From Methanosarcina acetivorans C2A (GTDB lineage Archaea > Halobacteriota > Methanosarcinia > Methanosarcinales > Methanosarcinaceae), in the NCBI RefSeq assembly GCF_000007345.1, contig NC_003552.1, positions 5,208,001 to 5,272,000 of the forward strand: a stretch of 64,000 bases of DNA, in the 5' to 3' direction. Below the pieces are notes generated by a model. It saw only the letters and a list, made by a program, of their open reading frames with translations. It was not told the origin of the DNA and ran no database searches. Each line of letters starts with the position of its first letter. Position 1 is the first letter of the stretch. This document shows, one piece after another, positions 1 to 54,613 of this stretch. The translations under genes were made by a program, and so were the position numbers.

Positions 1-150
1 CCAGTCGCTTCCTGCCTTCTTAAGGTCCGAAAAATTCTTGAGACAACAATCCAGTCCGATCAAAACCCCTCCTGAAAATTCAGATTTCAGATGACCGGGC
101 ATTTCCGCGCAGGCAGGCTTAACCCCTATGAAAAAAGAGGAGAAACGAAA
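1..150 (+). ncRNA. Structured 5' leader element, second type, of the first surface gene
   Basis: This is the second-type copy of the leader RNA repeated through the window. The 5' helix strand is AGTC (3-6) plus CCTGC (11-15). The GGTCCG motif is at 24-29. The 3' strands are GCAGG (109-113) followed by GGCT. The invariant ATTTCCGCGCAGG block is at 101-113. GTCCG can pair with CGGGC (96-100) through one G-U pair. It ends in CCCCTATGAAAAAAGAGGAG, which holds the ribosome-binding site of the next gene. Any tandem first-type copy would lie outside the window. The family is not one I recognise by name. Confidence 0.7.
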
Positions 151-152: not shown

Positions 153-3100
153 ATGAACAAACATACATTGAAAATATTTCTGATTTGTCTAACATTGCTC
201 CTGGTGACGGCTGCTCAGCCGGTACTGGGCTCCGACTGGGCTCAGTTCCAGAGAGATGTCTATAACACAGGTGTAACTGCAGACAGGGCCCCTATAACGG
301 ACCCTATGAACTCCACACTTTCCTGGGAGTATAAACTGGGAGCAAACGTTGATTCGGCTCCTATAGTGGCCGGAGACATGATGTATGCTCTGGTGGGTAA
401 CAATCACATCTATGCTTTTAACAGGATCACAGGCGAACTTGTCTGGGAAGAATCCACAAGTGGGAGTCTCGGCTTCCTGATAGGAAATGCAGCTGTCGGA
501 AACGGGATAGTTTTTGTGCCGACCACTAACGGGCAGATCTTTGCTTTTGATGCAGAAACAGGGGACTTGAAATGGAATAAAACTGTAAGCAGCAAGCAGC
601 TTGATACTCCTATTGTTTATTCAGATGGCAAAATCTACTTCGGGGAAGCAATGGGTGGACGCAATTATTACTGCCTGGATGAGGACGGTAACGAAGTCTG
701 GAGCCGGACCGCAACAACCCAGGAAAGCAGTCAGGGATCCTACTATTGGGCAGGAGCTGCAGTAATCGGGAACAACCTGGTTTATGGAGACAATGATGGA
801 TACATTGTTTCCGTGAATAAGGATACTGGAACTGACATTGCTGAAATAAATGTCTCTGAAGAGTTCGGGGTAGACTGTAAAGAAATCCGGTCCTCAATCC
901 TTTATGTTGAAGACCTGGGAAGAGTTTACTTCACGTCTACGGGAGGATACTGCTTTGCTCTTGGTTTTAACCCTGCTGACGGGACCTTTAAGACTTCCGA
1001 CAAACACAGTGCAAACATCGCCTATGCCTCTACCACAACTCCTGCCTATTACAACGGAAGAGTCTACATAGGTTCGGGAGAAATAATGAAAGCCAATGGA
1101 AATGGGGTTTATTGCCTTGATGCCGATTTGACCGGTGTGATCTGGAATTACCCTGTGGGCGGCACAGGGATAGTTCAGTCCTCCCCGGCACTCTCCACAT
1201 ACTACGACGATGGGGACGGGGAAGTCTACATATACTTCACGGTAAACGCAAAACCCATAGGGGGCGTGTACTGTCTCAAGGACTTACCCGATTCAACGAG
1301 CCCCGAACTTGTCTGGAGTTACGTCGAAAGTGGCAAAACAGACTTTTCTCTTCCGGGAGTCGCAATCTCTGACGGCTGGGTCTATTACGGAACCGACAAC
1401 AAATACATCTTCGGACTCACAACTCCTGATTCGCAGGTACCTGAAGCACCTACCGCTGACTTCAGCGCGACACCCGTTTCTGGAGACGCACCTCTAACTG
1501 TCAGCTTCGCCGATCTTTCCACGGGCGATGGAATTACCACCTGGGCATGGGACTTTGAAAACGACGGAAATGTGGACTCTACAGAGCAGAACCCGAGCTA
1601 CACTTATTCCGATGCAGGAACCTACACCGTTAGCCTCACGGTTACCGGGGAAGGCGGAAGCGACTCTGAAGAAAAAGCTGACTACATCAGTGTATCCGAA
1701 TCATCTGCGCCTGTAGAACCGGTTGCTGCTTTCGCTGCGGATGTAACTAGCGGCACTGCTCCTCTGACCGTTAATTTCACGGACCAATCCACAGGTTCAC
1801 CTATTGCCTGGGCATGGGACTTTGACAACGACGGAAACGTGGACTCAAGCGAACAGAACCCGAGCTACACTTATTCCGATGCAGGTAGCTATACCGTAAA
1901 CCTAACAGTCACGAACGAAGCTGGAAGCAACAGTGCTGTGGAAACTGATTATATTACAGTATCCGAATCTTCCACACCTACAGAACCTGAACCGGTTGCT
2001 GCTTTCGCTGCGGATGTAACTAGTGGCACTGCTCCTCTAACCGTTAATTTCACGGACCAGTCCACAGGTTCACCTACTTCATGGGAATGGGACTTTGACA
2101 ACGATGGAAATGTGGACTCTACCGAGCAGAACCCGAGTTACACTTATTCCGATGCAGGCATCTATACCGTTAAACTGACTGTCAGCAACGAAAACGGTAG
2201 TGATGTCCTGGAAATTCTGGAAATGATCACAGTTAAAGAAACTGTAGTTTCCGAGGATGCCTGGTACCAGTTCCACAAAGACGCACAGCACAGCGGATAT
2301 AGTAGCTCTGATGCTCCTGACAGCGCTAACCTTGCCTGGATTGCCGAGCCTCTTAATGATACGTATTCCCTTGTTCCGAGTTCAAGCGTGGTTATTGCCG
2401 AAGGAATGGTCTTCGGACTCTGCAACGGCCCTGTCGACGAATATGGTAACCCTCTGACTTCAGAAGGCCAGCTTGTTGCCTTTGACGAGGAAACAGGAGA
2501 AGAAATCTGGAATGTAACCGTAATGGCGCCAGAATGGGGTTCATGGTCATGTCCTGCTTACGATGATGGAAAGGTTTTCGCATCTGCAGGGAAAAACACT
2601 TACTGTGTAAATGCTTCTACCGGAGATATCATCTGGACATTCCAGAACCCGAGTGAACTTGCATCATGTAACGGCGGCCCTTCAATAGGAGATGGAAAGG
2701 TATTTGCCAGCGACTGGGACGGAGGAAATTATTACTGTCTTGATGAAAACACGGGAGAACTTCTGTGGACTTTCAAGATAGATGGGCTCTATGCACAGTC
2801 TACTCCTGCTTACAAAGATGACAGGGTATATCTTTCAGGATGGACTACCGTAAATGCAGTCTACTGCGTAAATGCAACCACTGGAGAACTGATATGGGAA
2901 AATGAAGAGTTATCAAGCAACCCGTGCGGGTCCATAACAGTTACCGAGGAAGGGCTCTACCTTTCTATTTACAGTTTCGGGACAGAGGATGGGTTCTACA
3001 AGCTTGACCTGACCGACGGACATGAAATATGGGGAAGACCCGATATACCCCCTACGGATTCAACACCAGCTGTGGTAAATGGAAAAGTCTATTTGTCGGC

Positions 3101-4328
3101 GGGTACGGCGGGATACAGTGACCTCAATACCTATTGCCTTAATGCCTCTGACGGGAAAACAATATGGGTAACTGATTCTTCTGAGAATATAGGAGACTGG
3201 GTATGTTCACCTGCTGTTGCGGATGGAAAAGTCTTTACAGGAGGGGCAGCTGAAGGACTCTTTACTGGCTCTTCAACACTCTATGCTTTTGATGCAGAAA
3301 CAGGAGCAGTGGTCTGGAGTTATAAAGGCTGTGGAGGCTCACCGGCAGTTGCAGACGATATGGTATTCAGTACAGGAAGCGGAAAACTTTACGCTTTCAA
3401 GGAAGCAGAAGTACTTCTCCCTGAAGCAAAATTCAGCTCCAATGTAAGTTCAGGAGAAGCACCCCTGACTGTCGGCTTCACCGACGAATCAACTGGAGAA
3501 GGCATCACAGCCTGGGAATGGGACTTTGACAACGACGGAACCGTGGATTCCACTGAGCAGAACCCGATCCATACTTATGACAATGCAGGCAGTTACACTG
3601 TCAACCTCACCGTGACCAGTGCAGAGGGAATCGACTCTGAAGTAAAGATGGACTATATCAATGTTTCTGAGTCCTCAACACCTGGAGAGCCTGAACCAGT
3701 TGCTGCTTTCATTGCAAATGTGACTAGTGGCACTGCTCCTCTAACCGTTAATTTCACGGACCAGTCCACAGGTTCACCTACTTCATGGGAATGGGACTTT
3801 GACAACGACGGAAATGTGGATTCCACAGAGCAGAACCCGAGCTACACTTATTCCGATGCAGGCAGCTACACCGTGAACCTCACAGTTACAAACGCAGAGG
3901 GAAGCAATTCCGAAGTGAAGACTGAGTATATCACGGTTGAGGAAGCTTCTTCAGGGAGCCAGAACGGGTCATCAAGTGTGTCCCTGAATGTAACCATTGT
4001 TCCGGTGATTTCCCTTGAGGTCTCTCCTTCAGCCCTGGATTTCGGGGAACTGTACCCTGGAAAAACCAGTGAGCTCCAGTATCTAACTCTCAAAAACAGA
4101 GGGAGCTGTGACATAAATGTTACAGCCGTAGTCTGCGACTGCTCTGCTGAAGATGAGCTTTTCAGCCAGGGACTGCTACTGGACTCTCAGCTATGGAATA
4201 ATTACTGGAAAGTAGTAGGAAAGAACAGTCAGGAAAACACTTCAGTAGCTCTGCAGGTTCCGGCTGATTATGCCGGTTCCGGAAACAAAAAAGGGACAAT
4301 AACCTTCTGGGCGGAGGCAGCCGAATAA
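153..4328 (+). CDS. Secreted PQQ-propeller/PKD surface protein with a beta-rich C-terminal domain
   Basis: Exported modular protein of 1391 residues, probably part of the cell-surface layer; no catalytic residues are evident. The signal peptide is residues 1-26, cut after VLG. A PQQ-like beta-propeller spans about 28-425, with WxxxxxGxxxGxP-type blades and 'YALxxxTGEL.W' repeats. Three PKD domains (WDFDNDG...NPSYTY...YTVxLTV) span about 430-697, a second propeller about 700-1086, and two more PKD domains about 1090-1263. The C-terminal domain (about 1268-1391) begins LDFGELYPGK and resembles ASH/DUF1573-type beta-sandwiches; it has no membrane anchor. Unlike most paralogues here it lacks the cohesin/dockerin tail. 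The start follows GAGGAG of the leader hairpin. Residues about 650-1263 are nearly duplicated in the last gene of the window. Confidence 0.95.
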   Translation: MNKHTLKIFLICLTLLLVTAAQPVLGSDWAQFQRDVYNTGVTADRAPITDPMNSTLSWEYKLGANVDSAPIVAGDMMYALVGNNHIYAFNRITGELVWEESTSGSLGFLIGNAAVGNGIVFVPTTNGQIFAFDAETGDLKWNKTVSSKQLDTPIVYSDGKIYFGEAMGGRNYYCLDEDGNEVWSRTATTQESSQGSYYWAGAAVIGNNLVYGDNDGYIVSVNKDTGTDIAEINVSEEFGVDCKEIRSSILYVEDLGRVYFTSTGGYCFALGFNPADGTFKTSDKHSANIAYASTTTPAYYNGRVYIGSGEIMKANGNGVYCLDADLTGVIWNYPVGGTGIVQSSPALSTYYDDGDGEVYIYFTVNAKPIGGVYCLKDLPDSTSPELVWSYVESGKTDFSLPGVAISDGWVYYGTDNKYIFGLTTPDSQVPEAPTADFSATPVSGDAPLTVSFADLSTGDGITTWAWDFENDGNVDSTEQNPSYTYSDAGTYTVSLTVTGEGGSDSEEKADYISVSESSAPVEPVAAFAADVTSGTAPLTVNFTDQSTGSPIAWAWDFDNDGNVDSSEQNPSYTYSDAGSYTVNLTVTNEAGSNSAVETDYITVSESSTPTEPEPVAAFAADVTSGTAPLTVNFTDQSTGSPTSWEWDFDNDGNVDSTEQNPSYTYSDAGIYTVKLTVSNENGSDVLEILEMITVKETVVSEDAWYQFHKDAQHSGYSSSDAPDSANLAWIAEPLNDTYSLVPSSSVVIAEGMVFGLCNGPVDEYGNPLTSEGQLVAFDEETGEEIWNVTVMAPEWGSWSCPAYDDGKVFASAGKNTYCVNASTGDIIWTFQNPSELASCNGGPSIGDGKVFASDWDGGNYYCLDENTGELLWTFKIDGLYAQSTPAYKDDRVYLSGWTTVNAVYCVNATTGELIWENEELSSNPCGSITVTEEGLYLSIYSFGTEDGFYKLDLTDGHEIWGRPDIPPTDSTPAVVNGKVYLSAGTAGYSDLNTYCLNASDGKTIWVTDSSENIGDWVCSPAVADGKVFTGGAAEGLFTGSSTLYAFDAETGAVVWSYKGCGGSPAVADDMVFSTGSGKLYAFKEAEVLLPEAKFSSNVSSGEAPLTVGFTDESTGEGITAWEWDFDNDGTVDSTEQNPIHTYDNAGSYTVNLTVTSAEGIDSEVKMDYINVSESSTPGEPEPVAAFIANVTSGTAPLTVNFTDQSTGSPTSWEWDFDNDGNVDSTEQNPSYTYSDAGSYTVNLTVTNAEGSNSEVKTEYITVEEASSGSQNGSSSVSLNVTIVPVISLEVSPSALDFGELYPGKTSELQYLTLKNRGSCDINVTAVVCDCSAEDELFSQGLLLDSQLWNNYWKVVGKNSQENTSVALQVPADYAGSGNKKGTITFWAEAAE

Positions 4329-4906: not shown

Positions 4907-5047
4907 GAAGCTACAAATATCAATCTGTTTAATTGTATCTATATTAGTTAAGTCAAATATTTCTGAAAAACTTGGAACATTTAGACAAAATCATTCCATA
5001 TATTGCTAATTTGTATCCAGCTAAGATACGAAAATTCCTGAATAACT

Positions 5048-5165
5048 TGGTTGGTCTGACGCTTCAAAAAGGTCCGAAACCTGAGTCGGTAGCCCCACCA
5101 TACACAAAATATGGTCCGATTCTTTCGCCCAGAACAACCGCCAACCCCATAAAAACATAGGAGGA
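5048..5165 (+). ncRNA. Structured 5' leader element, first type, of the 5.6-10.9 kb gene
   Basis: The 5' strand TGGTTGGTCTG (5048-5058) pairs with CAGAACAACCG (5130-5140) with a single mismatch. Inside are CTTCAAAAAGGTCCGAAACC and TTTCGCCC, where CGAAA and TTTCG can also pair. It ends in CCCCATAAAAACATAGGAGG, a weak hairpin with a strong Shine-Dalgarno sequence but no start codon after it. A second-type copy follows about 320 bases later. Confidence 0.65.
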
Positions 5166-5182
5166 ACTCAAAAAAAGAGACT

Positions 5183-5198
5183 AAAAACACTTGTTTTT
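5183..5198 (+). terminator. Attenuator-like hairpin with U-tract between the two leader elements
   Basis: AAAAAC and GTTTTT form a perfect 6-bp stem around ACTT, ending in a T run, about 20 bases after the first leader element. The same sequence is kept at 11423-11438, 18935-18950 and 34011-34026. A conditional termination site is an inference from position and the T tract. Confidence 0.35.
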
Positions 5199-5241
5199 AT
5201 ACACGGCTCTTGCTTGAAATTTGTTTTAAACGAACTGAAAG

Positions 5242-5279
5242 TCAGGTATGCCCTTCACCATCAGGTATGCCTTTCATCA
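5242..5279 (+). repeat. Tandem duplication of 19 bp in the leader
   Basis: TCAGGTATGCCCTTCACCA is followed directly by a near-identical unit. The leaders at about 11.48 and 19.0 kb also carry two units, while those at about 25.3 and 34.07 kb carry one. Copy number therefore varies between otherwise conserved leaders. Confidence 0.6.
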
Positions 5280-5484
5280 AAGATCTTGACAAGTATTGAA
5301 GCATTTTTGCCTAAAGGGCGAATTTTAATTTGAGCTGTGTTTTTCATATTCAGCATTTTTCCGGATTTTGAAATACTATCATTATCTGTTAGGTCACCGG
5401 AACTTTCTACAGCTAAGTAGTTCAAAACCGGCTGATCCCAGGAACTCAAAATCCGTGAGAATAAAAAAACAGATTAACAAAATT

Positions 5485-5625
5485 CAGTCGCTTCCTGCTT
5501 TCTTCAAAGGTCCGAAAATCCTTTAACCAAAAAAATTTCCTGCCCGAGCAAACCGATTATCAAATATTCGGGGATCCGGACATTTCCGCGCAGGTAGGCT
5601 GAAACCCTATGAAAAAATAGGAGAA
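5485..5625 (+). ncRNA. Structured 5' leader element, second type, of the 5.6-10.9 kb gene
   Basis: The closing helix is CAGTC (5485-5489) with GGCTG (5597-5601), and CCTGC (5494-5498) with GCAGG (5590-5594). GTCCG (5510-5514) pairs with CGGAC (5577-5581). The terminal hairpin CCTAT (5606-5610)/ATAGG (5617-5621) holds the ribosome-binding site AGGAG. The hairpin also contains a mini-ORF, ATG AAA AAA TAG. Confidence 0.7.
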
Positions 5626-8600: not shown

Positions 8601-10865
8601 TTCACCTATACGGGCGTGGGCGCTAACGCGATGGCCTGGGACTTTGGCAACGACGGAACTGTGGACAGCACGGCGAGGAACCCCGGTTACACCTATGATG
8701 TGCCGGGTACCTACTCGATCAAACTGAATGTCAGCAACCCCTGGGGCAGTGACAGTGAAGTAAAGACAGCCTATGTCACCGTAGCCGAACAGGTCGATAA
8801 CTTTACCTATACCTCCGATGGCACCTCGGTGACCATAACCGGTTACTCCGGGCCGGGCGGCGATGTCGTCATACCGAGCACGATAGGGGACCTGCCGGTC
8901 ACCGCTATCAGCGGCAGTGTGTTCAAGAGCAATACCAACATCAACTCGGTAACCATACCTGACAGCGTCACCACCATCGGCTCCAGTGCTTTCTACGGCT
9001 GCACCGGCCTGACCTCGGTGACCATACCGAACAGCGTGACTACCATCGGCAACAATGCGTTCAACGGCTGCACCGGCCTGACCTCGGTGACCATAGGAAA
9101 TAATGTCACTAAAATTGACGATAGAGTGTTCTACGGCTGCACCGCCCTGATCTCGGTGGTCATTCCTGACAGCGTCACCAGCATCGGCGACAGCGCGTTC
9201 TACCAGTGCAGTAACCTGGCTTCGGTGACCATACCTGACAGCGTCACCACCATCGACAGCTATGCGTTCCGTGACTGCACTGCACTGACCTCGGTAACTA
9301 TACCTGACAGTGTCACTAACGTCGAATCAAGGCTGTTCTACGGCTGCACCGGCCTGACCTCGGTGACCATAGGGATTGGCCTCGATGAGATCCCCTCTTA
9401 TATGTTCTACGGCTGCAGCGCCCTGACATCAGTAACCATACCGGACAACGTCACCGAGATAGGTATCAATGCGTTCCGCAAAACCGCCCTGACCTCGGTG
9501 ACCATAGGAAACAATGTCACAACCATTGGCAGCAGTGCGTTCCGCGACTGCACCGCTCTTACCTCGATGGTGTTCACGGGCGATGCTCCTTCTTCGGTGA
9601 GCAGCAGCTGGGTGGATGGATGTCCCGACCTGGTGGCGTACTACTACGAAGACGCTACCGGTTTCACCACGCCGACTTGGAACGGCGTCGCCTGTTACCC
9701 GCTGACAGCGGCACCGGTGGCGGACTTCGAGGCCGACGTGACATCAGGAATCGGACCTATGATTGTGAATTTCACCGACCAGTCAACAGGCATTGTTTCA
9801 TCCTATGCATGGGACTTTGATTCCGACGGAACTGTGGACTCAACTGAGCAGAACCCATCGTATACATATATTTCAGCCGGTACTTTCACTGTCAACCTTA
9901 CGGTTGCAAATGCAAACGGGACCGATTCCGAGGTAAAGACCGATTATATCACAGTATCCGAACCATCTACGCCTGCAGAACCGGTTGCTGCTTTCACTGC
10001 GGATGTAACTAGCGGCACTGCTCCTCTAACAGTTAACTTTACCGACCAGTCCTCAGGTACACCTACTGCCTGGGCATGGGACTTTGACAACGACGGAAAC
10101 GTGGACTCAAGCGAACAGAACCCGGGCTACACTTATAATGCAGCCGGAAATTACACCGTAAATCTGACTGTGGAAAATGCTGCAGGGACTGACTTTGAGT
10201 TAAAATCGGATTACATAGAAGTTTCCGAAGCTTCCGGGTCAACCGTTACTCTCTATTTCGATCCGGAAAGTTCCTCAGTTTCAGAAAACGAATTTACTGA
10301 AATAAATATCCTTGCCAGTAATTTCCCTGCAGGTCTTTCAGGCTACAACCTGACTGTTGCTATCGACGACCCGGCTGTTGCCGAGATAGTTGATATAGAG
10401 TACCCGACCTGGGCTCTGATTACTCAGAACTCTACCCTTCCAGGCTCTTCTATCTACATGAAGACTGTTGACCTGGAAGATGCCGTTCAGGAAGGAGCAG
10501 CAAATGTTGTGCTTGCTACTCTCACGGTTTCTGGAAAGGAGAAAGGATCTGCGAACCTTTCGATAGGGGTTAAACGTCTGGAAGAAGATTCCGGAGACTC
10601 TATCGAACCAGCTCTCCTGGCAGGGACAATTGAGGTGACCCCTCTGTCGCCCCTGCCTGATCAGGAATATGCCCCTAAGGACCTTGACGGAGATGGCCTC
10701 TACGAAGACCTCACAGGAAACGGGGAGTTCAGTTTCGTAGATATAGTGGCATACTTCCATAACATGGACTGGATAGAGGAAAATATGCCGGTGGAGTACT
10801 TCGACTTCAACGGAAATGGAAGGATAGACTTTGATGATGTGGTGGATATGTTTGCAATGATCTGA
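5634..10865 (+). CDS. Secreted propeller/PKD/BspA-LRR protein with cohesin-like and dockerin-like tail
   Basis: Exported mosaic of 1743 residues. The signal peptide is 1-26, nearly identical to that of its neighbours. A PQQ-like propeller spans about 27-415 and a PKD domain 418-500. Three blocks of BspA/TpLRR-type 23-residue repeats (about 504-672, 760-965, 1058-1358; unit like FYGCTGLTSVTIPDSVTNIG) are separated by two divergent PKD-like domains; two ordinary PKD domains follow at 1360-1532. The tail is a cohesin-like domain (about 1536-1675) and a dockerin-like pair of calcium loops (DLTGNGEFSFVD and DFNGNGRIDFDD, about 1680-1743). No membrane anchor is seen, so retention may depend on cohesin-dockerin contacts (inference). 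The part between about 5.8 and 9.7 kb is visibly richer in G and C than both ends, as if bacterial-type modules were inserted into a native frame. Confidence 0.95.
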   Translation: MNKHTLKIFLICVTLLLVAAAQPVLGSDWAQFQKDTYNSGITNEAGPISNNGSYAFAVLTKSSGMSGIDTTPVVVDDVVYTVAQGVALAFNKTTGDQIWNHSVGGGFTLATPVVADGKLFAGSNNGIIAALNISTGAEVWINSTGLGGEKAQVNTPIVYDAGNIYFGTWFSSGNPGSYYCLNATDGSFVWERACTSSAGYYWAGACVVGDYLVYGGDDGHLVSVNKYTGMTMEDVSTGTIFSSGTGNIRSSMSYDQSTGRLYFAAGSSCYYVGFDSGTGTFVKSVKGSGTMTGSSTSTPAVYNDRAYVGCGGSLYCLDADTLETIWFYTVGAQVQSSPAISTYYDDGNGEIYIYFTTNDASCGMYCLKDIPGNTEPIVRFEFFPPGSMKQYSLQGAAISDGMVYYGNDAGYLFALADPEIHFTANTTYGSAPLTVQFTDYSVGSTAWQWDFDNDGNVDSTERNPIYTYSAAGNYSVNLTINKSTGSVQELKTDYITVIEAKPLEDYLTYTSDSSSITITGYTGPAGDLVIPDEIDGLPVTKIADRVFQGTPLTSVVIPDSVTNIGLYQFQNCEDLISIYTGGVPSISTNNIRNCPSLETITVGHRLSSITSYSIRDCPSLDAMVFEAEGDAPSASGNWNYNCPNLVVYYCENATSFTTPSWAGKPCYPIGSPTADFSTNAISGSAPLTVQFTYSGVGANALSWYFDGDATVDSTARNPSYTYDTPGTYSATLYVSNPWGSDSKLSTNYITVTEARADGWAYTSDGTSVTVTGYSGSDSDVTIPGEIDGLPVTTIGASACKALTSLTSVTIPDSVTNIDASAFYGCTNLTSVTIPDSVTNIGSSAFYGCTGLISVTIPDSVTNIDNSAFRGCTGLDSLTIGNGVTTIGSSAFYGCTGLTSVTIPNSVTTIDTSAFYGCTNLTVMMFNGNAPTTVGSNWASGTNLVAYYSEGATNFTTPEWNEVPCYPALTAATAEFTSNSVYGSAPLTVQFTYTGVGANAMAWDFGNDGTVDSTARNPGYTYDVPGTYSIKLNVSNPWGSDSEVKTAYVTVAEQVDNFTYTSDGTSVTITGYSGPGGDVVIPSTIGDLPVTAISGSVFKSNTNINSVTIPDSVTTIGSSAFYGCTGLTSVTIPNSVTTIGNNAFNGCTGLTSVTIGNNVTKIDDRVFYGCTALISVVIPDSVTSIGDSAFYQCSNLASVTIPDSVTTIDSYAFRDCTALTSVTIPDSVTNVESRLFYGCTGLTSVTIGIGLDEIPSYMFYGCSALTSVTIPDNVTEIGINAFRKTALTSVTIGNNVTTIGSSAFRDCTALTSMVFTGDAPSSVSSSWVDGCPDLVAYYYEDATGFTTPTWNGVACYPLTAAPVADFEADVTSGIGPMIVNFTDQSTGIVSSYAWDFDSDGTVDSTEQNPSYTYISAGTFTVNLTVANANGTDSEVKTDYITVSEPSTPAEPVAAFTADVTSGTAPLTVNFTDQSSGTPTAWAWDFDNDGNVDSSEQNPGYTYNAAGNYTVNLTVENAAGTDFELKSDYIEVSEASGSTVTLYFDPESSSVSENEFTEINILASNFPAGLSGYNLTVAIDDPAVAEIVDIEYPTWALITQNSTLPGSSIYMKTVDLEDAVQEGAANVVLATLTVSGKEKGSANLSIGVKRLEEDSGDSIEPALLAGTIEVTPLSPLPDQEYAPKDLDGDGLYEDLTGNGEFSFVDIVAYFHNMDWIEENMPVEYFDFNGNGRIDFDDVVDMFAMI
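7145..9705 (+). repeat. Interrupted array of 69-bp LRR-coding repeats
   Basis: Repeats of 23 codons (unit like AFYGCTGLTSVTIPDSVTNI) occur in three blocks, with a few degenerate units, about 6 units and about 10 units respectively. Blocks are separated by PKD-like coding segments. The DNA is strongly repetitive and produces long spurious ORFs in other frames. Confidence 0.85.
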
Positions 10866-11146: not shown

Positions 11147-11286
11147 GAAGCAACAAATATCAATCTGTTTAACTGTATCTAATTAGTTAAGTCAAATATT
11201 TCTGAAAAACTTGGAACATTTAGACAAAATCATTCCATATATTGCGAATTTGTATCCAGCTAAGATACGAAAATTCCTTAATAATT

Positions 11287-11404
11287 CGGTTGGTCTGACG
11301 CTTCAAAAAGGTCCGAAACCTGATCCGATAACCCCACCATACACCAAATATGGTCCGATTCTTTCGCCCAGAACAACCGCCAACCCCATAAAAACATAGG
11401 AGGA
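11287..11404 (+). ncRNA. Structured 5' leader element, first type, of the 11.9-18.4 kb gene
   Basis: CGGTTGGTCTG (11287-11297) pairs with CAGAACAACCG (11369-11379), 10 of 11 positions. The element contains CTTCAAAAAGGTCCGAAACC and TTTCGCCC and ends in CCCCATAAAAACATAGGAGG. It is nearly identical to the copy at 18800-18916. Confidence 0.65.
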
Positions 11405-11422
11405 TCTCAAAAAAAAGGGACT

Positions 11423-11438
11423 AAAAACACTTGTTTTT
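11423..11438 (+). terminator. Attenuator-like hairpin with U-tract
   Basis: AAAAAC/GTTTTT stem around ACTT ending in a T run, at the same distance after the first leader element as in the other copies. Termination is inferred only. Confidence 0.35.
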
Positions 11439-11723
11439 ATACACGGCTCTGCCTGAAATTTGTTTCAAACGAACTGAAAGTCAGGTATGCCCTTCACCAT
11501 TAGGTATGCCCATCATCAAAGATCTTGACAAGTATTGAAGCATTTTTACTTAAAGGGCGAATTTTGGTTCGAGCCGTGTTTTTCATATTCGGCATTTTTC
11601 CGGATTTTGAAATGCTATCATTATCTGTTAGGTCACCGGAACTTTCTACAGCTAAGTAGTTCAAAACCGGCTGATCCCAGAATCCTCAAAATCCGTGAGA
11701 ATAAAAAACAGAATAACAAAATT

Positions 11724-11863
11724 CAGTCATTTCCTGCTTTCTTCAAAGGTCCGAAAATCCTTAAACCAAAAAAATTTCCTGCCCGAGAAAACCGATTATC
11801 AAATATTCGGGGGTCCGGACATTTCCGCGCAGGCAGGCTGAAACCCTATGAAAAATAGGAGAA
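11724..11863 (+). ncRNA. Structured 5' leader element, second type, of the 11.9-18.4 kb gene
   Basis: CAGTC and CCTGC pair with GGCTG and GCAGG; GTCCG pairs with CGGAC. The terminal hairpin is CCTATGAAAAATAGG with the ribosome-binding site in its 3' arm. Here the ATG in the hairpin is in frame with the gene, so an eight-residue N-terminal extension can be read. Confidence 0.7.
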
Positions 11864-14800: not shown

Positions 14801-17800
14801 GCGGAAAGTACACGGTAAAGCTTACAGCCACGAATGAATTCGGCAGCTCATATCTGGTGAAAACGGATTATATCGAGCCTTATGGCATCCTTGCGGATAC
14901 ACCCTGGCCAAAATTCCGTATGGATGCAAGGAACTCGGGGATATCGCCCTACACAGGCCCCCAGACCAATAATACGATATGGAACATTACCACGGACGCA
15001 TCATTCAGTTCCTCAAGTTCTTTTTCGATAGGTTCCGACGGCACAATATATTTCGGTGGCGGCTATTCAGACTACAATGTCTATGCCCTGAATCCCGACG
15101 GGACGCTTAAGTGGAATTACACTGTCGGGAAGTCGATCTACGGTACTCCGACGATCAGTTCCGACGGCACGATATATTTCGGAAGCAGTGACAAGAATTG
15201 CTATGCCCTGAACCCTGACGGGACACTCAAATGGTCGTACACCACAGATAGCACTCTCGCTGCCTCTCCAGCCATAGGTTCCGACGGCACGATATATTTC
15301 GGAGGGCAAAGTGGCCATGGCACCGACGGGACCGTATATGCCATGAATCCCGACGGGACACTCAAATGGTCGTACACTGACAGCGATGCTGCTATCGCTT
15401 CTGTTAGTCCTGCCATCGGTTCTGATGAAACCATATATGTACCTTTCCAGGACGGTACAGTATATGCCCTGAATCCCGACGGGACCGAGAAGTGGAATTT
15501 CAGCACCGGTAGTCAGATCTACAGCAGTGCCGTGCTGGATTCGGAGGATGTCCTGTATATTGGAACCAGGGGAGCTAAAGTATTTGCAATAAATCCTGAT
15601 GGGACTGAGAAGTGGAACTACACTGCAGGAGGATCTTTATCGTTCTTTTATATGTTCGATTACAGTTCCCCCATTGTTGGAACTGACGGTACGGTCTATA
15701 TCGGAACTTACGGATGGAATGATTTCTTCGCTCTGAATCCGAACGGAACCCTCAAATGGAGCAGCAGTGACATTGGTTCCAGTTTTAGCGGTTCTCCGGT
15801 CATGGGTGCTGATGGTACCATCTATATTGGCAGCAACGACAAGAAAGTATCTGCCATAAATCCGAACGGAACGATTAAGTGGACCTACACTACGGAAGCT
15901 TCGGTAGGCTGCACTCCTGCAATCGGATCCGACGGGACTCTTTACATTGGAACCGATACGGTTTACGATACCCATGGAGATTTCCTCGCTGGCGGTGTCC
16001 TCTACGCCTTCCGCGACCCCGCCGATCTCCCCGTCGCCAGCTTCACCTCGGACACCACCTCCGACGAAGTCCCGCTGTCCGTAAGCTTCACCGACACCTC
16101 CGAACGTGCCGAAAGCTGGGCCTGGGACTTTGACAGTGATGGAGTTGTAGACTCCACTGAGCAGAGCCCGACGTATACCTACATCAGTCCAGGCAATTAC
16201 ACCGTCACCCTCACCGTAAGCAATACCGGTGGCAGTGACGCCGTAATCAAAGAAGACTACATCAACGTGCTTGAAGCCCCGGCTTCTTCCTCGGCAGATG
16301 AAGACACCTGGTACCAGTTCAGGAAGACTGCCGAACACACCGGGTACACCACCTCGGATGCACCCGACACCAACACCCTCCTCTGGAGAAGCGCCAGACT
16401 CACCGACGATTTCACCCTCGTACCCTCCTCTTCTGTCGCTATAGCAGACGGCAAAGTCTTTGCCAATGCCATCATCGGCTCGGTAGACGAAGAAGGTAAT
16501 CCGGAAGAAGGTGCCATCGGCCAGCTCGTTGCTTTCAGCATGTACAATGGCCGAAAATACTGGAACACCACCATTGCAGTACCCGAATGGGGTTCCTGGT
16601 CTTCTCCTGCCTATGACAATGGTTTTGTCTTCACCTCCACGGGTGCGAACACCACCTGTATCAATGCGACCACAGGTGCCATCGAATGGACATTCACAAA
16701 TCCATCAGGCCGTGCTTCCTGCAATGGCGGGCCGGTAATTGCAGAGGGTAAAGTCCTGTGCAGTGACTGGGACGGCCTGCACTACTACTGCCTGGACGAA
16801 ACCACAGGTACCGAACTGTGGAACTATACGGTTGACAGCAGTGACAGTTACACCCAGGGAACCCCGGCTGTCAGCAACGGGACGATAATCCTCACAAGCT
16901 GGGATGACATCTACTGCCTCGACATGGACGGAAACCTTCTGTGGGCTAAACCCAACCCTTCGTCTTCTGGAAGCATTTGTGGTTCTCCTTCGATTGCAGG
17001 GGACATGTTCTACTTGACAACATATGATTTTGGCAGTGACGACAAACCTGCCCTATTCGCCTTTGACCTCGAAAACGGCACTGAGATATGGAATGCTACC
17101 ATCCAGAGAACCGATTCCACCCCTGCCATTGCAGACGGCTATCTATACGTATGCGGTGGATGTACAGGTTATTCTGAAAGCCAGACCTACTGCTTTGACG
17201 CCTTAAACGGCACTCTCATCTGGAGTACCCCCAAAGCAGATCAGGGAATAGGAGACTGGACTTGTTCTATTGCAGTTGCTGACGGCAAAGTCTTTGTTGG
17301 GAAGTCCGCAGGTTCTTCCTTCGGTCATAAAGGCCTCTATGCATTGAATGCTGAAACCGGCGATGAAATCTGGTATTCAGATTCTGCGGGTGATTCGCCT
17401 GCAATAGCAGATGATACGGTATTTTCGATAGGGCTTGACCAGGAAGATGTGGCATATTTGTATGCTTTCAAAGATGAAGAGTCGGGTATGCCTGTTGCAG
17501 ACTTTTCCGCAGATATCACTTCCGGTGTCACTCCGCTTACGGTTAACTTTACCGACCAGTCCACAGGCACACCGACCTCGTGGTTCTGGGAATTCGGGGA
17601 TGGAGGAAACTCTACCGAGCAGAACCCCTCGCATATCTATAATGCACCAGGTACTTACACCGTAAACCTGACTGTGGAAAATGCTGGCGGGACTGACTTT
17701 GAGTTGAAGTCGGATTACATAGAAGTTTCCGAAGCTTCCGGGTCAACCGTTACTCTCTATTTCGACCCGGAAAGTGCCTCTGTGGCAGAAAACGAATCCA

Positions 17801-18369
17801 CTGAAATAAATCTCGTTGCCAGTAATTTCCCTGCAGGTCTTTCAGGCTACAACCTGACCGTTGCTCTCGACGATCCGGATGTTGCCGAGATAGTCGATAT
17901 CGAGTACCCGACCTGGGCTCTTATTACTGAAAACTCTTCCCTGCCAGCGACTTCTATCTACATGAAGACTGTTGACTTGGAAGATGCCATTCAGGAAGGA
18001 GCAGCAGATGTTGTGCTTGCTACTCTCACTGTTTCTGGAAAGGAGAAAGGATCTGCGAACCTTTCGATAGGGGTTAAACGTCTGGAGGAAGATTCCGGAG
18101 ACTCTATCGAACCAGCTCTCCTGGCAGGGACAATTGAGGTGACCCTTCTGTCGCCCCTGCCTGATCAGGAATATGCCCCTAAGGACCTTAACGGAGATGG
18201 CCTCTATGAAGACCTCACCGGAAACGGGGAGTTCAGTTTCGTAGATATAGTGGCATACTTCCATAACATGGACTGGATAGAGGAAAATATGCCGGTGGAG
18301 TACTTCGACTTCAACGGAAATGGAAGGATAGACTTTGATGATGTGGTGGATATGTTTGCAATGATCTGA
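11872..18369 (+). CDS. Secreted three-propeller PKD protein with cohesin-like and dockerin-like tail
   Basis: Exported mosaic of 2165 residues. An ATG at 11848 is in frame, but 11872 is chosen because the protein then begins MNKHTLKIF like its paralogues, directly after TAGGAG, and 11848 lies inside the leader hairpin. The signal peptide is 1-26. A PQQ-like propeller covers 27-418, two PKD domains 423-595, and an uncharacterised domain with the motif 'FxxYENGF..AELGYLEVSTDG' 598-838. Two PKD domains follow (840-1000). A second propeller of different type has regular 'DGTIYFG..YALNPDGTLKW' blades (1006-1380). Then come a PKD domain, a third propeller (1476-1872), a PKD domain, a cohesin-like domain (1956-2094) and dockerin-like loops (2098-2165). 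It has no membrane anchor. It has the most propellers of any protein here, suggesting a rigid extended surface molecule (inference). Confidence 0.95.
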   Translation: MNKHTLKIFLICVILFLVAAAQPVLGSDWAQFQKDIHNTGVTADRAPITDPTNCSLSWNYSMGGNIDVTPVVAGDMTYVVASNNHLCAFNRTTGTLLWEESTSGGGFLLGNLAVGNGIVFVPTVDGKIFAFDAETGSPKWNKTLSSKQLDTPILYYDGKIYFGEAMGGRKYYCLDETGNEVWNRTATTQNSGQGSYYWAGAAVIGDSLVYGDDDGHLVSVNKDTGTDIAEIDVSEEFGITCKEIRSSVLYVEELNRIYFTSKGGYCYALGFNVEDGTFNTSEKYIANIGYSTSTPAYYNGRVYVGAGGMYGGGSGISCLDENLTDEIWHYAAGAVQSSPAISTYYDDGDGEAYIYFTVNSATGGVFCLKDYTGCTNPELAWSYADASKTAYTLAGAVISDGWIYYGTDKRYLFGFTTEKEQTPSIPVANFSANPLSGDSPLTVQFTDLSTGDGINVWAWDFNNDGIVDSTEQNPSHTYTPAGNYTVNLTVENANGSDFEVKTDHITVTDGSSGGDAPVADFTANVTSGVAPLTINFTDQSTNAESWAWDFNGDGIVDSTEQNPQYTYYPGNYTVNLAVNNSAGSDTESKEDYIWVIGPYSTAVANENPGAPDPGIPQYIGPDGDGKHDATNYPNNYKNPIFVASYTSIVDYSPSTGREQNSYRSLGDLYQEEIDAGASPGEITVWFEAPICNGEGADFAAYENGFIISDTNLIFAELGYLEVSTDGEHFVRFPSVSYTPEAVGGYGGVDARNVYNLVGKHVHMYGDYWGTPFNLDDLADDPGVLNGSVDLNEINYVKIVDIPGTGYYKDSLGNPIYDAWPTYGTGGLEFGGVDIIHCRPAANFTADETTGSGSLTVQFNDTSTGGPTSWFWDFGDGNTSTEQNPVHEYTTNGTYTVSLKAINEFGNDSEVREGYITVEYKDPRSPVVDFTADPVSGAFPLTVNFTDASTGNPTGWFWDFGDGNTSTEQNPVHVYADSGKYTVKLTATNEFGSSYLVKTDYIEPYGILADTPWPKFRMDARNSGISPYTGPQTNNTIWNITTDASFSSSSSFSIGSDGTIYFGGGYSDYNVYALNPDGTLKWNYTVGKSIYGTPTISSDGTIYFGSSDKNCYALNPDGTLKWSYTTDSTLAASPAIGSDGTIYFGGQSGHGTDGTVYAMNPDGTLKWSYTDSDAAIASVSPAIGSDETIYVPFQDGTVYALNPDGTEKWNFSTGSQIYSSAVLDSEDVLYIGTRGAKVFAINPDGTEKWNYTAGGSLSFFYMFDYSSPIVGTDGTVYIGTYGWNDFFALNPNGTLKWSSSDIGSSFSGSPVMGADGTIYIGSNDKKVSAINPNGTIKWTYTTEASVGCTPAIGSDGTLYIGTDTVYDTHGDFLAGGVLYAFRDPADLPVASFTSDTTSDEVPLSVSFTDTSERAESWAWDFDSDGVVDSTEQSPTYTYISPGNYTVTLTVSNTGGSDAVIKEDYINVLEAPASSSADEDTWYQFRKTAEHTGYTTSDAPDTNTLLWRSARLTDDFTLVPSSSVAIADGKVFANAIIGSVDEEGNPEEGAIGQLVAFSMYNGRKYWNTTIAVPEWGSWSSPAYDNGFVFTSTGANTTCINATTGAIEWTFTNPSGRASCNGGPVIAEGKVLCSDWDGLHYYCLDETTGTELWNYTVDSSDSYTQGTPAVSNGTIILTSWDDIYCLDMDGNLLWAKPNPSSSGSICGSPSIAGDMFYLTTYDFGSDDKPALFAFDLENGTEIWNATIQRTDSTPAIADGYLYVCGGCTGYSESQTYCFDALNGTLIWSTPKADQGIGDWTCSIAVADGKVFVGKSAGSSFGHKGLYALNAETGDEIWYSDSAGDSPAIADDTVFSIGLDQEDVAYLYAFKDEESGMPVADFSADITSGVTPLTVNFTDQSTGTPTSWFWEFGDGGNSTEQNPSHIYNAPGTYTVNLTVENAGGTDFELKSDYIEVSEASGSTVTLYFDPESASVAENESTEINLVASNFPAGLSGYNLTVALDDPDVAEIVDIEYPTWALITENSSLPATSIYMKTVDLEDAIQEGAADVVLATLTVSGKEKGSANLSIGVKRLEEDSGDSIEPALLAGTIEVTLLSPLPDQEYAPKDLNGDGLYEDLTGNGEFSFVDIVAYFHNMDWIEENMPVEYFDFNGNGRIDFDDVVDMFAMI

Positions 18370-18659: not shown

Positions 18660-18799
18660 GAAGCAACAAATATCAATCTGTTTAACTGTATCTAATTAGT
18701 TAAGTCAAATATTTCTGAAAAACTTGGAACATTTAGACAAAATCATTCCATATATTGCGAATTTGTATCCAGCTAAGATACGAAAATTCCTTAATAATT

Positions 18800-18916
18800 C
18801 GGTTGGTCTGACGCTTCAAAAAGGTCCGAAACCTGATCCGGTAACCCCACCATACACCAAATATGGTCCGATTCTTTCGCCCAGAACAACCGCCAACCCC
18901 ATAAAAACATAGGAGG
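18800..18916 (+). ncRNA. Structured 5' leader element, first type, of the 19.5-24.8 kb gene
   Basis: CGGTTGGTCTG (18800-18810) pairs with CAGAACAACCG (18882-18892). It ends in CCCCATAAAAACATAGGAGG. This intergenic region is a duplicate of that at 10.9-11.9 kb, although the gene downstream belongs to a different subfamily. Confidence 0.65.
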
Positions 18917-18934
18917 ATCTCAAAAAAAGAGACT

Positions 18935-18950
18935 AAAAACACTTGTTTTT
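18935..18950 (+). terminator. Attenuator-like hairpin with U-tract
   Basis: AAAAAC/GTTTTT around ACTT, at the conserved position after the first leader element. Function inferred. Confidence 0.35.
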
Positions 18951-19168
18951 ATACACGGCTCTGCCTGAAATTTGTTTTAAACGAACTGAAAGTCAGGTAT
19001 GCCCTTCACCATTAGGTGTGCCCTTCATCAAAGATCTTGACAAGTATTGAAGCATTTTTACTTAAAGGGCGAATTTTGGTTCGAGCCGTGTTTTTCATAT
19101 TCGGCATTTTTCCGGATTTTGAAATGCTATCATTATCTGTTAGGTCACCGGAACTTTCTACAACTAAG

Positions 19169-19298
19169 AACCTATCCGAAAAGTGCTGCAGTTTGCTATA
19201 ACTTTTACATTGGGCAATAAGCAACCGGAACGGAACCCAGATAGTATATCCTTCTCGTAATCTTTGCAACATGCCATTATCGACTTTTCGGATAGGCT
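19169..19298. mobile_element. MITE-like insertion of 130 bp with terminal inverted repeats
   Basis: The ends AACCTATCCGAAAAGT and ACTTTTCGGATAGGCT are inverted repeats matching at 15 of 16 positions. The element is flanked by direct CTAAG copies (19164-19168 and 19299-19303). The duplicate leaders at 11.65 and 5.41 kb have the uninterrupted sequence with a single CTAAG, so the empty site is visible in the same window. It encodes no protein and must have been moved by a transposase elsewhere. It sits between the two leader elements, inside the predicted untranslated region. Confidence 0.85.
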
Positions 19299-19371
19299 CT
19301 AAGTAGTTCAAAACCGGCTGATCCCAGAATCCTCAAAATCCGGGAGAATAAAAAAACAGAATAACAAAATT

Positions 19372-19511
19372 CAGTCATTTCCTGCTTTCTTCAAAGGTCC
19401 GAAAATCCTTGAACCAAAAACAATTTTCTGTCCGAGCAAACCGATGATCAAATCTTCGGGGGTCCGGATATTTCCGCGCAGGCAGGCTGAAACCCTATGA
19501 AAAAAGAGGAA
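19372..19511 (+). ncRNA. Structured 5' leader element, second type, of the 19.5-24.8 kb gene
   Basis: CAGTC and CCTGC pair with GGCTG and GCAGG. GTCCG pairs with CGGAT through a G-U pair in place of the usual G-C. The terminal hairpin is ACCCTATGAAAAAAGAGGAA. The core is conserved although the following gene starts with an unrelated signal peptide. Confidence 0.7.
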
Positions 19512-25012: not shown

Positions 25013-25120
25013 AAAGGCAAAATAATCAATTAGTTCAATCAGATACAATTAGTTCAATCAATTATTTCAGGAAATATCAAAATTTCCGCAGCATATGTTC
25101 CGGATAAACTTTTAAAACCC

Positions 25121-25240
25121 CAGTTGTTCTGACACTTCAAAAAGGTCCGAAACCTTATCCTCACTGCAATATAGAATTCGAAATGCAGACAGACTCTTTC
25201 GCTCAGACCAACCGACAAACCCCTATAAAAACACAGGAGG
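25121..25240 (+). ncRNA. Structured 5' leader element, first type, divergent copy
   Basis: CAGTTGTTCTG (25121-25131) pairs with CAGACCAACCG (25204-25214) at 9 of 11 positions. GGTCCG, CTTTCGCTC and the final CCCCTATAAAAACACAGGAGG-like block are kept although the interior is unrelated to the other copies. Conservation of the helix and motifs with a changed interior supports a structured RNA. Confidence 0.6.
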
Positions 25241-25363
25241 TCTTCAAAAAGATCAGAAACTGAGCACTTATTTTTCTTTACACGGTTCTATGCCTGAATT
25301 TATTCCTGAATTCCGGAAAGTCAGGCATGTCTTTCAGCAAAAATCTAGATGAATATATTAGAT

Positions 25364-25477
25364 AGGACTTACGACTTGAAATGCAAAATCAGGCACAAGC
25401 AAACTCGTCAATATTATTTGAGTTTATACAGTTAAGTCTTTCTCGCTCGTGGTTTTTAATTCAATTGCGTAAGTCCT
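25364..25477. mobile_element. MITE-like insertion of 114 bp
   Basis: Perfect 10-bp terminal inverted repeats (AGGACTTACG and CGTAAGTCCT) are flanked by a 7-bp direct repeat ATTAGAT (25357-25363 and 25478-25484). It has no coding capacity. It lies between the two leader elements of the short propeller gene. Confidence 0.8.
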
Positions 25478-25801
25478 ATTAGATTTTGGCAGTATCGCGA
25501 ATTTGCTGTAATTTAAAGTCGATTTTTTGGACACGGTATGTAGAACTAATCTACGGGTCTTGAATTTTTGACTTAATGAAATTCTAAAATTTGTAATTAT
25601 TTAGAAAAATTGGTACACTGCCAGACTTTTGTTTGAAGACTATATTTTGAATTTTTAATTAGAGCCGTGTTTTTCAGATTCGGCATTTTTTGGATTTTGA
25701 AATGCTATAATCTTCCACCTGGTCGCCGGAAGCACCCGAAAATGGGCTTCAAAACCGGCTGACCTCTAAAATCCAGATGAATAAAAAAGAAAAACAAAAT
25801 T

Positions 25802-25937
25802 CGCCGGGTCCTGCTCTCTTCAAAAGGCCGAAAAATCCTCAACTAAAAAATCCTCTTTCGATAAAAATAACTTTTCAAATCTTCAGGGGATCACACATTT
25901 CCGCGCAGGCCGGTCGAATCTTTATGAAAAATAGGAG
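25802..25937 (+). ncRNA. Structured 5' leader element, second type, divergent copy
   Basis: The inner helix CCTGC (25810-25814)/GCAGG (25905-25909) is kept. The outer helix changes to CGCCGG (25802-25807)/CCGGTCG (25910-25916), so both strands changed together relative to CAGTC/GGCTG. The end is TTTATGAAAAATAGGAG. The GGTCCG motif is GGCCG here and its usual partner is not recognisable. Confidence 0.6.
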
Positions 25938-33723: not shown

Positions 33724-33874
33724 GAAGCAACAAATATCAATCTGTTTAATTGTATCTAATATAGTTAAATAAAATATTTCAGGAAAACTTGGAATATTTA
33801 GACAAAGTTATTCTATATATTGGAATTGTATCCAGCTAAGATACCAGCTAAGATACGAAAATTCCTTAATAATT

Positions 33875-33991
33875 CGGTTGATCTGACGCTTCAAAAAGGT
33901 CCGAAACCTGATTTGGCAGCCCCACAATACACAAAATGCGGCCCAATTCTTTCGCCCAGAACAACCGCCAACCCCATAAAAACATAGGAGG
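33875..33991 (+). ncRNA. Structured 5' leader element, first type, of the 34.4-40.5 kb gene
   Basis: CGGTTGATCTG (33875-33885) pairs with CAGAACAACCG (33957-33967). The one substitution relative to other copies falls exactly on the mismatched position of the helix. It ends in CCCCATAAAAACATAGGAGG. Just upstream a short duplication (AGCTAAGATACC twice) breaks the small ORF readable in sister copies. Confidence 0.65.
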
Positions 33992-34010
33992 ATCTCAAAA
34001 AAAGAAACTA

Positions 34011-34026
34011 AAAAACACTTGTTTTT
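34011..34026 (+). terminator. Attenuator-like hairpin with U-tract
   Basis: AAAAAC/GTTTTT around ACTT at the conserved position after the first leader element. Function inferred. Confidence 0.35.
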
Positions 34027-34293
34027 ATACACGGCTCTGCCTGAAATTTGTTTTAAACGAACTGAAAGTCAGGTATGCCCTTCATCAAAAATAGTGACAA
34101 GTATTGAAGCATTTTTGCCTAGAGGACGAATTTTAATTTGAGCTGTGTTTTTCATATTCAGCATTTTTCCGGATTTTGAAATGCTATCATTATCTGTTAG
34201 GCCACCGGAACTTTCTACAGCTAAATAGTCCAAAACCGGCTGATCCCAGAATCCTCAGAATCCGTGAGAATAAAAAAACAGAATAACAAAATT

Positions 34294-34433
34294 CAGTCGC
34301 TTCCTGCTTTCTTCAAAGGTCCGAAAATCCTTGAACCAAAAACAATATTCTGTCCGAGCAAACCGTATACCAAATCTTCGGGGGTCCGGACATTTCCGCG
34401 CAGGCAGGCTGAAACCCTATGAAAAAAGAGGAA
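34294..34433 (+). ncRNA. Structured 5' leader element, second type, of the 34.4-40.5 kb gene
   Basis: CAGTC and CCTGC pair with GGCTG and GCAGG; GTCCG pairs with CGGAC. It ends in ACCCTATGAAAAAAGAGGAA, the ribosome-binding site of the gene. Confidence 0.7.
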
Positions 34434-40857: not shown

Positions 40858-41166
40858 ATGGCTCAATCCACACCGTCGCGTTGGAGCACAATATTTGAAG
40901 AGAGTGCATCAAATATATTTACAGTAATTCTTCAGAGATGTATAACTCAAAAAAATTTTGAAGCTGTGATGAATGTATACGAAAGTCAAGCGTTAGACCC
41001 GCATGTAAAAAGAGAAAGGTTCAGAGAAATTGTTTGAATAAGAAATAGAGGAATTGATCCAAAAAGAGTAAGAGGAAAAGGAATGAAATCCTTAACCTGT
41101 GACCAATGTATTAAACTCTTACTCAAAACACTTACAGGAAATACTTTACTGAGACTTTCATCATAA
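40858..41166 (+). pseudogene. Possible broken small gene
   Basis: From ATG at 40858 a frame reads MAQSTPSRWSTIFEE... to a TGA at 41035, then continues without a break (IRNRGIDPKRVRGKGMK...) to TAA at 41164. The composition and continuation look protein-like, suggesting one gene split by a nonsense mutation. I do not recognise the family. Its end overlaps the stop of the convergent minus-strand gene. Confidence 0.3.
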
Positions 41167-52601: not shown

Positions 52602-52835
52602 AATAGATTGCCAATAGAAGCAAAATTCAGAATCGGAGGGGATTGTTTGGGTGGTGAAAAGATAGACAAAAGGAAAAAAGTTTCAAGGTAAAATGATTTC
52701 AGGACAAAACAAAAATAGTTCCATGAATTTTTTTTCAAAATATTGGGCAAAATTTGGAAATGGGATCGAAACAAGCAATGGCTCCTTTGTTGAAGTCCCC
52801 AATCTTCCTTATCATTCTCACATTTTCGGGATAAC

Positions 52836-52955
52836 GGTTAGCCTGCCGCTTCAAGGAGGTCCGAATTCCTTTCCCGGACACACCCTAATCTGGACGTGAC
52901 CGAGATTCCGCACAGGCTAACCAAACCCCTATGAAAACATAGGAGAAATAAGATT
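52836..52955 (+). ncRNA. Orphan structured leader element
   Basis: GGTTAGCCTG (52836-52845) and CAGGCTAACC (52913-52922) are perfect complements enclosing CTTCAAGGAGGTCCGAATTCC and GAGATTCCGC. GTCC also pairs with GGAC. The terminal hairpin CCTATGAAAACATAGG has a perfect 6-bp stem and holds AGGAG. It has the sequence and layout of the leader elements, but the following ATG (52956) opens a frame of only nine codons. Confidence 0.7.
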
Positions 52956-53919: not shown

Positions 53920-54072
53920 AGAAAGCTTAACAGTTAACTGTTTGAGAAAGATATATTCGACAAATTCCTAAACTTAAAAAATGAATTTTCATTCCAACTC
54001 TTGAAGGTACAGGTAAAAAATTTCGGAAACAGAAAAATTTCCGGAACAGTCTTTCCAAATCCTTCAAAAAAC

Positions 54073-54191
54073 CGGTTGTTCCAAACGCTTCGAAAAGGTC
54101 CGAAACCTCATCCTTTCGCAGCCTGATGCCTGAAGTGCAGAAGGCATTCTTTCGTATAGGACAACCGCCAACCCCATGAAAACAGAGGAGG
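54073..54191 (+). ncRNA. Structured 5' leader element, first type, divergent copy
   Basis: CGGTTGTTCC (54073-54082) pairs with GGACAACCG (54159-54167). The inner base pairs differ from the TCTG/CAGA of other copies on both strands, so pairing is kept by compensating changes. GGTCCGAAACCT and CTTTCG are kept. It ends in CCCCATGAAAACAGAGGAGG. Confidence 0.65.
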
Positions 54192-54240
54192 TCTCAAAAA
54201 GATAAGAAACTACTGAACATATTTTTTTACTTTACACGGC

Positions 54241-54326
54241 TCCATGTCCAAAAGTTTCCTCTAATAAAAAGGATGTTTGGCGCTCCATGTCCAAATTTTT
54301 CCTCTAATAAAAAGGATGTTTGGCAT
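54241..54326 (+). repeat. Direct tandem duplication of 43 bp
   Basis: Two units beginning TCCATGTCCAAA and ending AAAAAGGATGTTTGG lie head to tail between the two leader elements, differing at only a few positions. No other leader in the window has this duplication. Confidence 0.8.
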
Positions 54327-54477
54327 GCCTCCGGGAAAAATTTGACGAACATTAAACGTCTTTACCGAAACGGGAATACATTATATTTTTTTGGATTTTT
54401 AATTCCATATTCAAGTAGGAAAATATAAAATTCAAAAGAAGTCAAAAAAAGCAAAGTAGAAAAAAGAAAAAGATTAA

Positions 54478-54613
54478 CAGGCCGCCTCTGCTCCCTTCAA
54501 AGGTCCGAAAAGCTCTTGAAGTAGAAAACTTTGCCCGATCAAAAAATTCCTTAATTTTCAGGCAATCTTGGATTTCCGCGCAGACCGGCTGAACCCTATG
54601 AGAAAATAGGAGA
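54478..54613 (+). ncRNA. Structured 5' leader element, second type, of the 54.6-60.1 kb gene
   Basis: The inner helix is TCTGC/GCAGA (3' strand 54580-54584), a compensated change from CCTGC/GCAGG. The outer helix is GGCCG/CGGCT. GGTCCGA pairs with TTGGATT through G-U pairs. It ends in CCCTATGAGAAAATAGGAG. Confidence 0.7.

Follow-up and report, generated by a model that had tools for sequence, protein, structure and literature searches.

GOLLD and OLE are large non-coding RNAs that are structured but have no known function, and, to our knowledge, few natural riboswitch-like leaders have been described in archaea. The RNA analyzed here resembles GOLLD and OLE in being several hundred nucleotides long, multi-domain, and covarying, but it lies in cis directly 5' of coding genes, is repeated in one genome, and has no Rfam match. 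In tandem riboswitches, such as T-box and c-di-GMP pairs, the first unit usually carries a terminator and is far from the ribosome-binding site (RBS) (PMC12452182). Our leaders likewise contain one sensor-like fold twice, the first copy with a putative termination signal far from the RBS and the second near the RBS. They differ from tandem riboswitches in being archaeal, in having no known ligand or Rfam match, in having a U-tract without a canonical terminator hairpin, and in the conserved middle domain between the two copies. The Methanosarcina CO dehydrogenase/acetyl-CoA synthase operon also has a 5' leader (J Bacteriol 2009, cited in PMC5112694). It is likewise a long regulatory Methanosarcina leader, but of a single operon, and is likened here by description only.

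No Rfam 15 family matched the window at the gathering threshold, and a search with one leader and the orphan copy (C, below) up to E=5 gave chance-level matches only, which agrees with an earlier note on this DNA that could assign no named RNA family. The cobalamin riboswitch (RF00174) gave no match at the gathering score in the window and none up to E=5 in one leader or C. Neighboring CobN and DUF4430 genes hint at a tetrapyrrole theme, but the fold and motifs differ from those of RF00174. Rfam also recognized no group I or II intron or ribozyme core in the window or in one leader. The literature searched, which was covered in part, contained no description of this RNA and no archaeal case of a tandem sensor whose outputs are of two kinds. 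Methanosarcina is absent from the main text of a 2010 survey of 104 motifs.

The window, the whole stretch of 64,000 nucleotides that was analyzed, is 5208001-5272000 of one 5,751,492-base contig of Methanosarcina acetivorans C2A. Giant surface-protein genes are clustered in it, and their domains are of the PKD, PQQ beta-propeller, BspA-type leucine-rich, and NosD/beta-helix types. All 14 copies of the leader element claimed earlier were located, all on the + strand, as were the parts of the leaders listed below for the window. They form six pairs of an A and a B element, rather than the five tandem pairs counted before, plus a B cut short by the left edge and an orphan copy, C. The exact motif CTTCAAAN{0,4}GGTCCGAAA occurs 17 times in the forward orientation and never in reverse in the whole genome, all within 5.21-5.31 Mb, and a reversed-pattern control of the same motif gave no matches in the whole genome. 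The C-terminal modules of the surface genes are 85-100% identical (10105-10404, 17609-17908, 23997-24296, 32245-32544, 39702-40001, and 59316-59615), with 10105-10404 and 32245-32544 scoring 100%, which suggests from the sequences a recent duplication or gene conversion.

Copies were scored with two covariance models, R1, built from A and C copies only, and R2, built from all types. Genes are named by their position in the window. The leader of gene 5634 begins with an A element, a three-way junction, at 5042..5163 (R1 122.8 bits). Its closing helix P1 pairs TTGGTTGGTCTG (5047-5058) with CAGAACAACCG (5130-5140) and covaries, as detailed below, and its P4 hairpin holds GGAGG at 5160-5164. A U5 tract, the putative termination stage, follows at 5194..5198, approximately 30 nt 3' of the GGAGG. 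The RBS-type B element (5479..5623, R1 match) has its GGAG immediately 5' of the ATG at 5634. The A and B elements of gene 11872 are at 11281..11402 (R1 131.6 bits) and 11718..11861, those of gene 19517 at 18794..18915 and 19366..19511, and those of gene 34439 at 33869..33990 (R1 133.1 bits) and 34288..34433; the copies without a score here are R1 matches. The operon 25948/27309 is served by one leader, with A at 25115..25239 (R1 match) and B before gene 25948 at 25796..25937 (weak with R1, 18.6 bits; R2 48 bits). Gene 54623 has an A of a divergent subtype at 54067..54190 (R1 105.3 bits) and a B at 54473..54612 (R1 match; R2 51.5 bits). The partial pair reported earlier at the left edge proved to be a truncated B before gene 153 (1..142; genomic copy 5207996-5208142, R2 54.9 bits), and its A lies outside the window, at window -417 (match from window -437 to -319, genomic 5207563, R2 86 bits). 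The single orphan noted earlier is the C element at 52829..52945 (R1 83.5 bits), which has the fold of A and no long ORF 3' of it. The claim that every large + strand surface gene has a leader did not hold, since the large + strand PKD gene at 61112 has none and gene 27309 has none of its own.

A, B, and C share one plan: P1 (~10 bp), CUUC(AAA), a short P2 with a UCCGAA loop, a variable P3, UU[UC]CGC, the 3' arm of P1, and then, 3' of P1, P4, a CCYAU..AUAGGAG hairpin. The long-range closing helix and the CTTCAAA and TTTC(C)GC motifs of the earlier note are thus found in all types. The core motifs were kept in most of 63 copies (CUUC in 59, UCCGAA in 57, and UU[UC]CGC in 52) and the stems vary. 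An initial joint MAFFT alignment misplaced A against B at CUUC, so that RNAalifold found no structure in it, and the model was therefore built from A and C first. R1 then recovered the unseen B copies (best E=1.7e-4), showing that A and B are of one architecture. The P2 loop, UCCGAAA, has a likeness to the tRNA T-loop, as a resemblance only. Many P4 hairpins (e.g. 52920-52945) spell ATG AAA ACA TAG or ATG AAA AAA TAG, a three-codon mini-ORF that is probably a by-product of the CTATG..CATAG palindrome.

In the 63 copies aligned to the model, an alignment that leans toward the model it was fitted to, changes on both sides were seen in 20 of 26 pairs compared to 15.0 in column shuffles (reached by 1 of 500 shuffles), and 84% of cells were paired, with G-U pairs common. 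Because of this leaning, helices were also tested on a sequence-only alignment of A and C, and on a separate MAFFT alignment of the whole leader, against a null made by redistributing the substitutions along the tree. P1 of A passed this test for both pairing and compensation (p=0.003 for each, where approximately 0.003 is the smallest reachable value and p values are uncorrected for the number of helices). P1 of B also passed (p=0.013 and 0.017), and the slid P1 and slid P3 controls failed. P2 and P3 gave p values of 0.07-0.17 and are suggestive. P4, the Shine-Dalgarno hairpin, was unsupported (p=0.44) and showed no compensatory change. A generic pairwise covariation scan of A and C with a phylogeny null found no significant pairs, and the claim of covariation therefore rests on whole helices. 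The earlier observation that helix strands change together is borne out, since the compensatory changes it quoted are present in the sequence and P1 covaries beyond phylogeny in both A and B. A conserved, covarying structured domain, as expected of a riboswitch, is thus found in the 5' leader. We are nearly certain that this is a real and uncatalogued archaeal structured leader RNA.

A and B, taken as two separate elements in the earlier note, are the end domains of one structured leader of ~580 nt (A - M1/M2 - B). Alignment of whole A-to-B regions revealed that the ~300-430 nt between them, overlooked before, are a conserved and covarying domain. With RNAalifold, M1 is ACACGGCUC paired with GAGCCGUGU, followed by a U-run, and M2 is CGGAUUUUG paired with CAAAAUCCG. 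Before gene 5634, M1 occupies 5201..5344 (ACACGGCTC at 5201-5209 with GAGCTGTGT at 5332-5340, then U5) and M2 occupies 5362..5455 (CGGATTTTG at 5362-5370 with CAAAATCCG at 5447-5455). In the tree-based test, which favors these helices since they were picked from the RNAalifold fold of the same alignment, M1 gave p=0.003 for pairing and 0.017 for compensation, and M2 gave p=0.003 and 0.010. A middle-domain profile (nhmmer) was found 3' of nearly every A, including A copies that lack a B. The matches in the window are 11415..11713 for gene 11872 (E=3.8e-71), 18927..19355 in pieces for gene 19517, 25253..25790, interrupted, for the operon 25948/27309, 34003..34281 for gene 34439 (E=1.5e-68), and a divergent 54222..54404 for gene 54623 (weak, E=0.0015). 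The profile had no match after the A of locus L063. A different block lies 3' of A there, in L061 (~14.0-14.8 kb), and in L006 (near 10.0 kb), which makes A a 5' module open to combination with various 3' parts.

Several natural variants of the leader were seen. In L070 (~3069-3309), a MITE-like insertion of ~240 nt, whose ends are inverted (GAGGCTGTCTTAAAATTCAA..TTGAATTTTAAGACACGCTC), interrupts the leader 3' of the U-tract of A. In L007 (8438-8501), A has lost ~60 nt of its core in a natural deletion, and P4, the middle domain, and B are kept. Short tandem units of the ATTAGTTCAATCAGATACA type, variable in number, lie 5' of several A copies (L057, L055, and window 25030-25090). Just past the GGAGG of A copies, after P4 (e.g. 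window 25239-25265), CTTCAAAAAGATCAGAAACTGA resembles the A core CTTCAAAAAGGTCCGAAACCTGA and, judged by its letters, could be a partial internal repeat or a pairing competitor.

A and B differ in what follows the shared fold. GGAG(G) is present in all 37 A copies, and a start codon lies within 18 nt of it in only 5. A U-run follows A in 36 of 37 copies, 25-33 nt past the GGAG in 34 of them. All 23 B copies have an AUG within 18 nt, and 5 of them have a U-run. C resembles A, with a U-run in 7 of 8 copies at 28-30 nt; a U-run was present in 30% of random 55-nt intergenic windows used as a control. The spacing from GGAG to the U-tract is kept in A and C despite their sequence differences. The hairpin said earlier to hold the Shine-Dalgarno sequence is therefore functional in this sense in B only, as 32 of the 37 A copies have a GGAGG without a start codon; the hairpin also lacks covariation support. 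The reading of a structured leader that is riboswitch-like or protein-binding stands, but it missed the distinct outputs of A (U-tract) and B (RBS).

R2 found 69 copies in 6 of 31 Methanosarcina genomes, including M. spelaei MC-15 and MAG165_SZBP, and no other genus carried it among 238 genomes of the class or 393 sampled from the phylum; these many-genome searches used strict filters with which distant relatives could be missed. A scan of 84,980 species with the exact pattern matched two Methanosarcina species and some bacteria, and the bacterial matches were judged to be due to chance. The exact pattern had no matches in viral contigs. A-B pairs, two complete units of one fold per leader, occur in four genomes. 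The elements precede large surface ORFs in several Methanosarcina species, an outcome that the earlier note had named as support for its reading, and its placement of the leaders before surface genes stands, although it had missed the restriction to six species. Since only six species of one genus carry the leaders, the similarity among them is largely explained by duplication with their genes.

The distance between the C element and a divergent cobN-like gene is ~1.2-1.4 kb in genomes G002, G003, G004, and G028 and 1.9 kb in the window. In addition, G024 has an A copy next to cobN, and G004 has an A-like copy next to a second cobN. The - strand genes divergent from C in the window are a giant CobN/Mg-chelatase-like gene (44547-50900), a PQQ beta-propeller gene (42435-43925), and an Ig-like gene (41164-42288), and this gene order recurs in G004 (L058). 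C is highly conserved across species and its flanks diverge. A conserved non-coding region of a few hundred nucleotides is found 5' of C on the same strand in L060, L062, L063, and L069, and more weakly in L005, the window, and L064, so there may be a longer non-coding RNA that has C as its 3' end. A direct dependence on cobN is weakened by G030 and G026, where cobN is 90-95% identical and the C block is absent, and by most Methanosarcina, which have CobN homologues without the RNA. The link between the RNA and cobN is thus one of neighborhood.

The DUF4430 domain is related to transcobalamin. G000, G002, and G003 have DUF4430 genes within their clusters, and in G024 such genes lie near the cluster. 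The DUF4430 proteins located within leader clusters, in three genomes, are encoded at L006:7626-8375, L063:9338-10129, and L061:10161-10994. A theme of corrinoid capture is possible. The CobN-like BtuS proteins of M. barkeri are reported to be upregulated, and its PKD surface proteins to be regulated, depending on the iron and sulfur source (PMC10846266). Because of the CobN/DUF4430 neighborhood and this response, a metal or tetrapyrrole signal is weakly suggested, as a lead and nothing more.

The best mechanism for the leader is an orphan riboswitch-like RNA that would work in two stages, transcription termination at A and translation at B, which we propose tentatively, as plausible but short of probable. 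It is proposed because of the U-run/AUG split, the layout of tandem riboswitches (PMC12452182), and the finding that hairpin-free U-rich tracts mark the ends of transcripts in Methanosarcina mazei and other archaea (PMC8716108). It builds on the shared fold, the covarying P1, M1, and M2, and the positions of the elements. One A - M1/M2 - B RNA of ~580 nt would be transcribed ahead of each surface gene or operon concerned, and A and B would be two versions of one three-way-junction sensor fold with different outputs. The junction would bind a signal, perhaps the one suggested above. The U-tract 25-33 nt after the GGAG hairpin of A would act as an archaeal termination signal, so that A would set the passage of RNA polymerase into the gene. 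B, which abuts the start codon, could sequester the Shine-Dalgarno sequence in its hairpin and set translation initiation. Together, the two would form a two-stage gate, as in tandem riboswitches in which the first unit is a terminator and the second controls the RBS. No clear mutually exclusive switching helices emerged; the U-tract (A and C) and the RBS (B) lie at fixed places, and P4 does not covary.

The main rival, a possible but doubtful one, is that the leader binds a protein that represses or stabilizes the surface mRNAs, with free-standing C elements as sponge RNAs that titrate it. The properties of C fit a decoy: it has the same fold, no ORF, the U-run at 28-30 nt in 7 of 8 copies, and strong conservation between diverging flanks; several leaders in one genome would also share one regulator. 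However, no candidate RNA-binding protein was recognized near the clusters among the genes scanned, and C, itself a putative transcript, adjoins cobN and not a regulator. It is unlikely that the leader is passive, duplicated along with its genes when the gene family recently expanded and serving mRNA stability or processing only, without sensing a signal. The near identity of some paralogous leaders (Ma11/Ma18) and of gene ends and the narrow taxonomic range are consistent with such copying, but helices that covary beyond the tree-based null, junction and loop motifs that stay constant while stems change, and a GGAG-to-U-tract spacing kept in A and C though their sequences differ argue against it.

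Insertion of a mobile or selfish RNA or DNA element 5' of genes is very unlikely. It would apply to C especially, as a block present or absent beside cobN, and the near-identical cobN genes of G030 and G026 without the block are in its favor. Yet no intron, IS, or terminal-repeat signature was recognized, Rfam found nothing, A and B run in the same direction as the surface gene, and all 23 B copies end at the start codon. Even less credible is a DNA-level operator in which P1 is the site of a dimeric regulator. The arms of P1 are indeed inverted repeats, but they lie ~65-110 nt apart, the element has many G-U pairs and falls within the presumed transcript, and B stops precisely at the RBS.

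The two-stage riboswitch-like leader can be extended to a new archaeal riboswitch class that has termination and translation outputs in series, senses a metal or metal-tetrapyrrole signal, and chooses which giant surface proteins are displayed, with C as a related regulatory RNA. In this full form, we regard it as distinctly unlikely. If the tandem reading with two outputs is correct, it would reveal how a large family of giant surface proteins is controlled in a methanogen amenable to genetics, and it would provide an archaeal example of RNA structure gating U-tract termination. The good genetics of Methanosarcina acetivorans C2A make the leader directly testable.
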